A model generated the notes under the pieces. The model saw nothing but the letters and a program-made list of their open reading frames with translations. It made no database searches and was not told the origin of the DNA. The position numbers and the translations under genes are program-made. 33,491 nt of DNA from Candidatus Equadaptatus faecalis. GTDB taxonomy: Bacteria; Synergistota; Synergistia; Synergistales; Synergistaceae. Below are positions 31,029 to 33,491 of this stretch, piece by piece; position 1 is the first letter of the stretch, and every line of letters starts with the position of its first letter. The stretch is taken from positions 1 to 33,491 of the forward strand of contig JAGHTZ010000061.1 in NCBI GenBank assembly GCA_018065065.1. Reading direction: 5' to 3'.

Positions 31029-33491
31029 TTATTTGAAAATAAATCCGTTAATTCCGGCGGCTTTAAGCTGAGCAAGTACCGCCTGCGGATTGTCGCCGCC
31101 GTCAACAAAAGTTCTGTAATAAGTTCTGTCCTTCACAACGCCCTCTCCGACAAAAGCGTTGTAGCCTTTGGCATTGAGATTGTCCGCAAGCCGCTGCGAA
31201 TCGCTTCTTCTTGCGGAAGAAAGCACCTGAATATTCTTGCCGGATACAGGCTTCTGCACAGCGACTGTTTTCGTTTCAGGTTTCGGCTGTACCGTTTTCG
31301 CAGGCTGTTTCTGTTCGGACACGGGAGCAGGCTTTGCCCTGTTGTTCTCAAGTTTTTCAACTCTTTCAAGCAGTTTGCGTATAACCTTGTCCTGTGCAAC
31401 GAGTTTTTCGTTCTGCTCTTTGTTTTCCGCTATAATGTCGGCATTTTCCGCAGAGAGGCTGACGATCTGTGTTTTCAGCACTTTGTTTTCTTCGTTGACG
31501 AACTTTACCTGTTTCTGCAGTTCAGCTCTCGTCTTTGCCGTTTCGCCCTTGCCGAATTTAATGCTGAAACCTGCGTTGTAGGCGTTCTGACTGTCGTTTC
31601 CGTTGCTTATTGACGTTGACGCGCTGAACATCATATTCGGGTTAGGTTTGTAGGCAATTCCTATCGCTTCTGCGTTCGCGCCTCTGTAGCCGCCGTACGC
31701 CACCGCTCCGACGACCTTGTCATCGCCTTCGCCCGACGGTTCAACGTAGTGCAGTCCGGCGAGTGCCGCGGATATTGCGCCGACTTCTTTCACTTCGTTT
31801 GAAACGGAGCCGAGCTGATTCTGTACGTTCGCAAACGCTCTGTCAACCTGTCCGACTGTTACTGCGTCTGTCGCGTATTTTCCGTCCGCCATGCCGCTTA
31901 TCGTACGTCCGCCTACAGCTACGGTATTGCTTTCCGTTACCTCCAGCGTTTTTCCGTCCACAGAACCGAACGCAATCGTGTTTTTAACGCCTTCCCCGAT
32001 TTTTACGCTGCTGCCGAGAACAAAGTTGTTATCGCCCTCTATCGTGTTGTTGTTTCCTATCGCGTAGCTTCCGTTTCCGGATATTACGTTCGGGTCGCCG
32101 AACGCGCCGGAGTTATTGCCTGTGACAACGTGTCCCGTGCCTATCGCTATTGAGTTTGCGCCCGACGCTTTTGCGCCGTAGCCTATTGCTACCGATTTTT
32201 CTCCGGCTGCTTTAGCGTTTTTGCCAAGCGCAGAGGCACCGGCTCCCGTTGCTGTCGCGTTCACGTCTTCAACATCAAACGCCGAAGCCGCGGACGGCTG
32301 TTCCTGACTGTTTATCGCAAGGTCAAGCGCTTCAAGGTTTTCTGCCACTGTCTTTGCTCTTTTCACGTAGAAACCGTCTTTGGCAGTGGTCTGCGCTTTT
32401 ATTGTGTCAAACCGGTCGTCAACGTATGCCCTGTCTGCTTTTCCGGCGGAGGCTGTTTCAAGCGCGGCTATGTCGCTTTTTGCCTGCGTCATGTCTGTCG
32501 TCAGATTATTTATTTTTTCTGTGTGCTCCTGCGCCGTGTTTTCAAGCACCGTTATTTTTCTTTCCGAGGCAGCTGTTTTTTCCGCCAGTTCCGCAACCTG
32601 AGTTGCGTCTGCTTTTTTACCGAGAGCATTGTCAATTTCCTGTTTTGTGTAGGCATCCGTTATTCCGTAGCCTGCAAGTGTTGCCGCTTTCTGCGCAAAT
32701 TTCGCGTCTGCCGCCTCCGTTGTATAGGCATCGGTTATTCCGTAGCCTGCAAGCGTTGTCGCTTTCTGCGCGAATTTGTCGTTTGCTTCGGCTTTCGTGT
32801 AGGCGTTTGTAATGCCGTAGCCTGCAAGTGTTGTCGCTTTCTGCGCAAATTTTGCGTCTGCCGCCGCCGTCGTATATGCGTCCGTTATTCCGTAGCCCGC
32901 AAGTGTTGTCGCTTTCTGCGCAAATTTCGCGTCCGCCGCCGCCGTTGTATATGCGTCGGTTATTCCGTAGCCTGCAAGTGTTGCCGCTTTCTGCGCGAAT
33001 TTCGCGTCTGCCGCCGCCGTCGTATAGGCATCCGTTATTCCGTAGCCTGCAAGTGTTGTTGCTTTCTGCGCAAATTTGTCGTTTGCTTCGGCTTTCGTGT
33101 AGGCATTTGTTATTCCGTAGCCTGCAAGCGTTGTCGCTTTGTCTGCTTTTGTCGTCTGCAGGGAAGTTATACTGTTGCTGTTTGCAAGTATGGCATTTTC
33201 GTTGAGTTTTACCTGAGCGTCAAGGCTGCTTATCGCGGATATTGTCGAAACGCCCGACACATAGTAGCTGCCTGATGTTGTAATTGTGTCGCCTGCAATT
33301 CTCGCCAGCTGTTCAGAATACAGCTGGCCCGCGTTTGCCGCGTCCTTTGAGCCTGCCGCGATTTCTCCGTCCGCCACGTTCGTTATTTTAAGTTCGTTGG
33401 CGTTGATACCTGCCGACGTTATGTAATACTTCTTCCCCACCATAAGCGAGTCCTGCGACAAGCCTGAATATATTTCCGAGCTTATAACGTC
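31029..33491 (-). CDS. Trimeric autotransporter adhesin (YadA-type) with C-terminal coiled coil and SPOR domain, 5' incomplete
   Basis: The frame is open to the window edge (820 residues visible), so the N-terminus and any signal peptide are missing. Visible from the N-side: a stalk/neck motif (ITNVADGEIAAGSKDAANAGQL), seven 25-residue repeats, a coiled coil, YadA-head repeats (SVAIGYGAKASGANSIAIG, 31420-32260 region downward), a neck (ATDAVTVGQV) and a four-strand YadA anchor ending near FSIKFGKG at about 31550. In known adhesins the protein stops there. This one continues with a ~65-residue coiled coil, a Pro/Lys/Gln-rich linker and a SPOR domain (NIQVLSSARRSDSQRLADNL to the C-terminus). 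The extra part should be periplasmic, and SPOR domains bind denuded peptidoglycan. The other family functions (adhesion, autoaggregation) are inferred. Confidence 0.88.
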   Translation of the reverse strand, partial: DVISSEIYSGLSQDSLMVGKKYYITSAGINANELKITNVADGEIAAGSKDAANAGQLYSEQLARIAGDTITTSGSYYVSGVSTISAISSLDAQVKLNENAILANSNSITSLQTTKADKATTLAGYGITNAYTKAEANDKFAQKATTLAGYGITDAYTTAAADAKFAQKAATLAGYGITDAYTTAAADAKFAQKATTLAGYGITDAYTTAAADAKFAQKATTLAGYGITNAYTKAEANDKFAQKATTLAGYGITDAYTTEAADAKFAQKAATLAGYGITDAYTKQEIDNALGKKADATQVAELAEKTAASERKITVLENTAQEHTEKINNLTTDMTQAKSDIAALETASAGKADRAYVDDRFDTIKAQTTAKDGFYVKRAKTVAENLEALDLAINSQEQPSAASAFDVEDVNATATGAGASALGKNAKAAGEKSVAIGYGAKASGANSIAIGTGHVVTGNNSGAFGDPNVISGNGSYAIGNNNTIEGDNNFVLGSSVKIGEGVKNTIAFGSVDGKTLEVTESNTVAVGGRTISGMADGKYATDAVTVGQVDRAFANVQNQLGSVSNEVKEVGAISAALAGLHYVEPSGEGDDKVVGAVAYGGYRGANAEAIGIAYKPNPNMMFSASTSISNGNDSQNAYNAGFSIKFGKGETAKTRAELQKQVKFVNEENKVLKTQIVSLSAENADIIAENKEQNEKLVAQDKVIRKLLERVEKLENNRAKPAPVSEQKQPAKTVQPKPETKTVAVQKPVSGKNIQVLSSARRSDSQRLADNLNAKGYNAFVGEGVVKDRTYYRTFVDGGDNPQAVLAQLKAAGINGFIFK
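32616..33140 (-). repeat. Seven 75-bp in-frame tandem repeats in the adhesin stalk
   Basis: The period is exactly 75 bases. The unit codes for KATTLAGYGIT-(D/N)-AYT followed by about ten variable residues ending KFAQ. The seventh unit diverges at its end (KQEIDNALGK). The TLAGYGITDAYTK-type unit is common in phage tail-fibre proteins. Copies alternate between AAADAKFAQ and AEANDKFAQ endings, which suggests duplication of blocks by recombination. Confidence 0.95.

Follow-up and report, generated by a model that had tools for sequence, protein, structure and literature searches.

Locus and domain architecture

The window, the whole stretch of 33,491 nucleotides that was analyzed, is C61, one of 100 contigs in the fragmented assembly of a 1.6 Mb genome. 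It contains at one end a gene for a trimeric autotransporter adhesin, whose single frame is uninterrupted between the contig end and the stop codon and encodes 820 residues (Table 1). The N-terminus is absent, as the contig end cuts the frame; a relative with a similar tail on C64, as well as relatives with only a coiled coil, start with an apparent signal sequence as judged by eye. Between positions 32500 and 33300, the passenger consists of repeats of approximately 34 residues each (KATTLAGYGITDAYTTAAADAKFAQ), and these repeats are probably the cause of the assembly stopping at the contig end. Between the adhesin stop codon and ctsR lies a stem with a T run after it (fold -23.9 kcal/mol, z -4.1), likely to be a transcription terminator ahead of ctsR-clpC. 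A pattern scan did not list this element, since the loop is longer than that scan allows.

Table 1. Features of the adhesin locus and further SPOR proteins of the genus
Feature	Position	Strand	Evidence or remark
Trimeric autotransporter adhesin gene	31029..33491	-	820 codons present; stop codon 31029-31031; open frame and Pfam
YadA anchor (PF03895), residues 592-646	31554..31718	-	Pfam; fold match to YadA anchor 2LME
Post-anchor coiled coil, residues 650-715	31347..31544	-	One 66-residue helix in model; heptad test
Pro/Lys/Gln-rich linker, residues 716-752	31236..31346	-	Predicted disordered, mostly pLDDT <50
SPOR domain (PF05036), residues 754-819	31035..31232	-	Pfam, AlphaFold2, Foldseek, alignment
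Stem then T run, 3' of adhesin stop codon	30959..31002 (limits approximate)	-	Fold
OmpH/Skp-like or similar periplasmic protein, Lys/Pro/Gln linker, C-terminal SPOR	L055:2582-3580	+	One of four such loci (this and the next three rows), which together cover both genomes of the genus
As above	L057:5432-6274	-	
Similar protein, OmpH resemblance by eye only	L196:976-2163	+	SPOR below Pfam threshold
As above	L197:1344-2540	-	

Head and stalk repeats (PF05658, PF05662) lie N-terminal to the anchor, with Pfam E-values of 4.2e-11 for YadA_head and 2.8e-11 for YadA_stalk, both over the curated cut-offs. The anchor scores 30.1 bits against a cut-off of 22.7, and the SPOR domain 30.5 bits against a cut-off of 21 (E 2.5e-8 when the tail is searched by itself). 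The FGKG motif that ends the anchor is followed by 171 residues, comprising the coil (66), the linker (37) and the SPOR segment (68). The coil terminates in RVEKLE, which matches R-h-x-x-h-E, the trimer motif of the coiled-coil literature. Pfam detected neither SLH nor OmpA domains in the adhesin; SPOR stands in their place. The protein is a type Vc trimeric autotransporter whose anchor is followed by a coiled coil, a linker, and a SPOR domain. The original prediction, made from the DNA alone, had described some 170 residues of this composition beyond the anchor in one reading frame; the count, the frame, and the profile matches to both SPOR and the anchor bear it out.

Predicted structure of the tail

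AlphaFold2 was run on five relatives, with one chain of the trimer modeled. The result displays four anchor strands, a single helix (78-143 of the modeled piece) and a linker that is disordered, before a SPOR domain with a pLDDT of ~90. As a whole the model scores low (mean pLDDT 64, pTM 0.32), which is to be expected when a single chain of a trimer is folded by itself. The order of elements in the SPOR domain (strand, helix, two strands, helix) is that of the RNP-like β-α-β-β-α fold. Foldseek searches against the PDB returned the SPOR domains of CwlC and RlpA and the YadA anchor 2LME with a probability of 1.00 each, at modest E-values (≥4.8e-3). A phmmer search of PDB sequences with the SPOR stretch found no match; the link to SPOR came from Pfam and from the fold, which agree on the identity originally proposed for the tail.

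Copies and conservation

The genome of the window holds ten YadA-anchor genes, all with some post-anchor tail. SPOR follows the anchor in three (C61, C64, C79) and is missing from the other seven. Two more SPOR-tailed adhesins are present in a sister genome (G001), a Synergistaceae MAG from an independent assembly, giving five over two genomes of the genus, all over the Pfam SPOR cut-off. A contig scan for further copies matched only the sister MAG. At the sequence level, the SPOR tail is under purifying selection: in this segment, pairwise dN ranges over 0.03-0.15 and pairwise dS over 0.38-1.07, at a ratio of ~0.09-0.22 (NG86, short segments), and in most adhesin pairs the coil is less conserved than SPOR. 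In a tree of 27 SPOR domains, the five from adhesins group firmly at 100/100; the tree, which has long branches and an unsettled bootstrap, did not resolve the source of the adhesin SPOR tail.

Post-anchor tails across Synergistota

YadA anchors and SPOR domains were surveyed in 188 Synergistota genomes. Anchors occur in 19 of these, belonging to 9 genera. Tails were read for 28 anchors covering all 9 genera, and every one extends 47 to 177 residues past the matched anchor. Most tails have coiled-coil character (mean heptad z 2.1 over 40 tails), and the trimer motif is found in 21 of 40 against 1.2 expected by shuffling, a comparison in which the tails are related, with a few repeated, and so do not count as independent. 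The notion that such proteins normally end with the anchor holds for Proteobacteria but fails in Synergistota, both in the 28 tails sampled and in all ten adhesins of the window's genome. SPOR follows a YadA anchor only in the window's own genus; the proposed search for further C-terminal SPOR domains on YadA-anchor proteins, carried out across the 188 Synergistota genomes, yielded none in other genera. As judged from these comparisons, the post-anchor coiled coil is a trait of the phylum, and SPOR is the unusual part.

A typical Synergistota genome has one SPOR match, in a protein of ~200-340 aa; there are seven matches in the window's genome and four in the sister genome. Elsewhere in the phylum, four matches each were seen in G031 and G040 (family f8), two of them in one 334-aa frame of G040, and SPOR frames of 708 aa occur in G037 and G056 (C1).

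Bechon et al. 2020 reported that in Veillonella the anchor of every trimeric autotransporter is followed by a coiled coil or an SLH domain, that coiled-coil, SLH, or OmpA domains occupy this position in other Negativicutes, Synergistetes, and Fusobacteria, and that Streptobacillus moniliformis trimeric autotransporters have OmpA domains there (PMC7549365). Peptidoglycan attachment was proposed for these domains, and the function of the coiled coil was stated as unknown (PMC7549365). The novelty of the window protein is smaller than first claimed, because post-anchor domains were published in 2020. Wall-binding tails on adhesins are already known; SPOR as the module appears to be new, with no earlier report on autotransporters found in the open-licence literature.

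SPOR on other envelope proteins

A 1,318-aa frame on C97 (L048:1-3954, +) ends in 154 residues, including SPOR, that lie beyond a barrel. Its AlphaFold2 model (barrel modeled from L129:1486-2760) has 12 strands mostly >90 pLDDT, a disordered linker, and SPOR, and Foldseek matches it to EstA, EspP, AIDA-I, and NalP at ~1e-12. Most close relatives of the C97 protein in the same genome stop two residues past the barrel (WYEFGK). Sequence and model indicate that a type Va autotransporter has gained a SPOR tail without a coiled coil. Two other type Va autotransporters carry SPOR-less post-barrel tails of 58 and 94 residues (L149:1649-3001, -; L150:528-2999, -).

OmpH/Skp-like proteins with a C-terminal SPOR are found on C44 and C39, and a further probable OmpH-like SPOR protein on C20 has a sister-genome counterpart that passes the SPOR cut-off. 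Skp is a periplasmic chaperone, normally without a wall-binding domain. Together with the type Va autotransporter, these proteins make the finding wider than the original prediction, which was confined to the adhesin. The SPOR domains of the adhesin, type Va, and OmpH-like classes do not group clearly together in the 27-SPOR tree, which fits separate acquisitions without proving them.

Probable wall attachment and alternative readings

In YadA-type barrels, the C-terminus of the anchor faces the periplasm, and the residues after FGKG should therefore be periplasmic; both the barrel topology and the side on which the tail lies follow from family knowledge. Three chains would form one 12-stranded outer-membrane barrel, with head and stalk exposed at the cell surface. 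Past the barrel, in the periplasm, they would run on in a trimeric coil, ~10 nm in length if helical throughout (66 residues x 0.15 nm), and then in flexible linkers and three SPOR domains that hold glycan strands lacking stem peptides. Clamped to the wall in this way, the adhesin would add to outer-membrane tethering, and it would probably be enriched in zones where amidases abound, for instance the septum and the new poles. We consider it probable, though well short of certain, that this type Vc adhesin is clamped to peptidoglycan by its periplasmic SPOR tail and is richest in such zones; the trimeric tail, glycan binding, load bearing, and localization are what we infer beyond the domain architecture, the SPOR fold, its conservation, and the purifying selection on it, to which sequence and model attest.

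SPOR domains bind only glycan without stem peptides (denuded glycan), a form concentrated at the septum, and the contact depends most on a basic patch and on the Gln of profile position 8 (PMC6895207). In the window protein, Q755 occupies position 8; this Gln is invariant in the five adhesins and aligned across the 27 SPOR domains. R793 is a conserved Arg, the Arg of YYR aligning with that of HRVRV; the three-Arg patch was partly checked only. Two amidase_3 genes in the window's genome mean that denuded glycan could be made there. On the basis of the conserved Gln and these genes, the SPOR tail is likely to bind peptidoglycan. Counting against this, profile position 12 is Ser rather than the preferred Phe (PMC6895207), and counting against a clamp, known SPOR proteins all act in division or morphogenesis, not tethering (PMC6895207). 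SPOR is not needed for anchoring, since only three of the ten adhesins have it, and an OmpM-type tether already in the genome further weakens the need for a SPOR clamp. An SLH domain with an apparent signal peptide lies at a contig edge (L098:87-218, -, contig C15) and probably belongs to an OmpM-like protein broken by the assembly. No OmpA-domain proteins were found in the window's genome. The clamp draws support from the profile and fold matches, the five copies, the selection on SPOR, the trimer motif in the tails, the lack of OmpA-domain proteins beside a retained OmpM-like SLH protein, the published SLH and OmpA domains behind YadA anchors, and a second, unrelated outer-membrane barrel of the same genome, the type Va autotransporter, that likewise ends in linker plus SPOR.

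The preference of SPOR for septal, denuded glycan and the presence of amidase_3 genes would also suit a tail that serves mainly as an address label for the septum or young poles, with little mechanical role. Binding and placing are, however, not exclusive, and the OmpH-like SPOR proteins suggest a wider use of SPOR in the genus, so that we regard a pure label as unlikely. Still less probable is a role in biogenesis, with the coil nucleating the trimer or holding the barrel in register during insertion by BAM and SPOR as a dispensable add-on. In its favor, the coiled coil by itself is the element present in all sampled members of the phylum, and seven of ten adhesins here lack SPOR, but the selection on SPOR, its better conservation than the coil in most pairs, and its use without any coil on the type Va autotransporter argue otherwise.

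Given the fragmented assembly and the position of the protein at a contig end, the architecture might also stem from a frameshift, mis-assembly, or a chance SPOR-like sequence. We give this almost no credence, as three loci in the window's genome and two in an independent assembly share the architecture, and SPOR passes the Pfam cut-off in each copy, with a fold match. Fusion of two genes by a frameshift, the objection raised with the original prediction, is rejected on the five equally organized copies in two assemblies and the low dN/dS of SPOR.

A broader proposal is that in this genus SPOR, elsewhere a division module, has become an all-purpose clamp of the envelope, attached to at least three unrelated kinds of protein (type Vc, type Va, and OmpH/Skp-like), where it would form an outer-membrane-to-wall tethering layer beside OmpM and link adhesion to the state in which amidases leave the wall. 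We hold this only tentatively, as a possibility with somewhat less than even chances.

Comparison with known systems

The finding gains interest from the presence of SPOR on several envelope proteins of unrelated kinds within one genus. Should the tail bind denuded glycan, the force of adhesion would pass straight to the wall, and placement of the adhesin would hinge on amidase activity; the same anchor with and without SPOR provides a natural comparison within one genome. SPOR would then join SLH, OmpA, and LysM among the wall clamps on autotransporters, suggesting that adhesins of diderm Terrabacteria repeatedly recruit any available wall-binding module.

The SPOR fold and its conserved Gln are shared with FtsN, DamX, DedD, RlpA, and CwlC; these, however, are division or lytic proteins that are inner-membrane, lipoprotein, or secreted, and are not fused to outer-membrane barrels. 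OmpM (PMC10628300) is likewise a trimeric outer-membrane protein with a periplasmic coiled-coil stalk bearing three wall-binding domains, but it is a porin with an N-terminal stalk and SLH instead of SPOR, and is encoded by a separate gene in the window's genome. Intimin and invasin (type Ve inverse autotransporters), as summarized where PMC13078405 cites Leo et al. 2015, are also adhesins with a periplasmic peptidoglycan-binding domain; in that account, they are non-trimeric, with LysM N-terminal of the barrel. Another parallel is with the adhesins of Veillonella and other Negativicutes and of Streptobacillus moniliformis (PMC7549365), which are type Vc proteins with an anchor that is not C-terminal and a periplasmic coil or wall-binding domain. 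In contrast to the Veillonella-type adhesins, the wall module of the window protein is a SPOR domain, for denuded glycan, set behind a coiled coil and linker.
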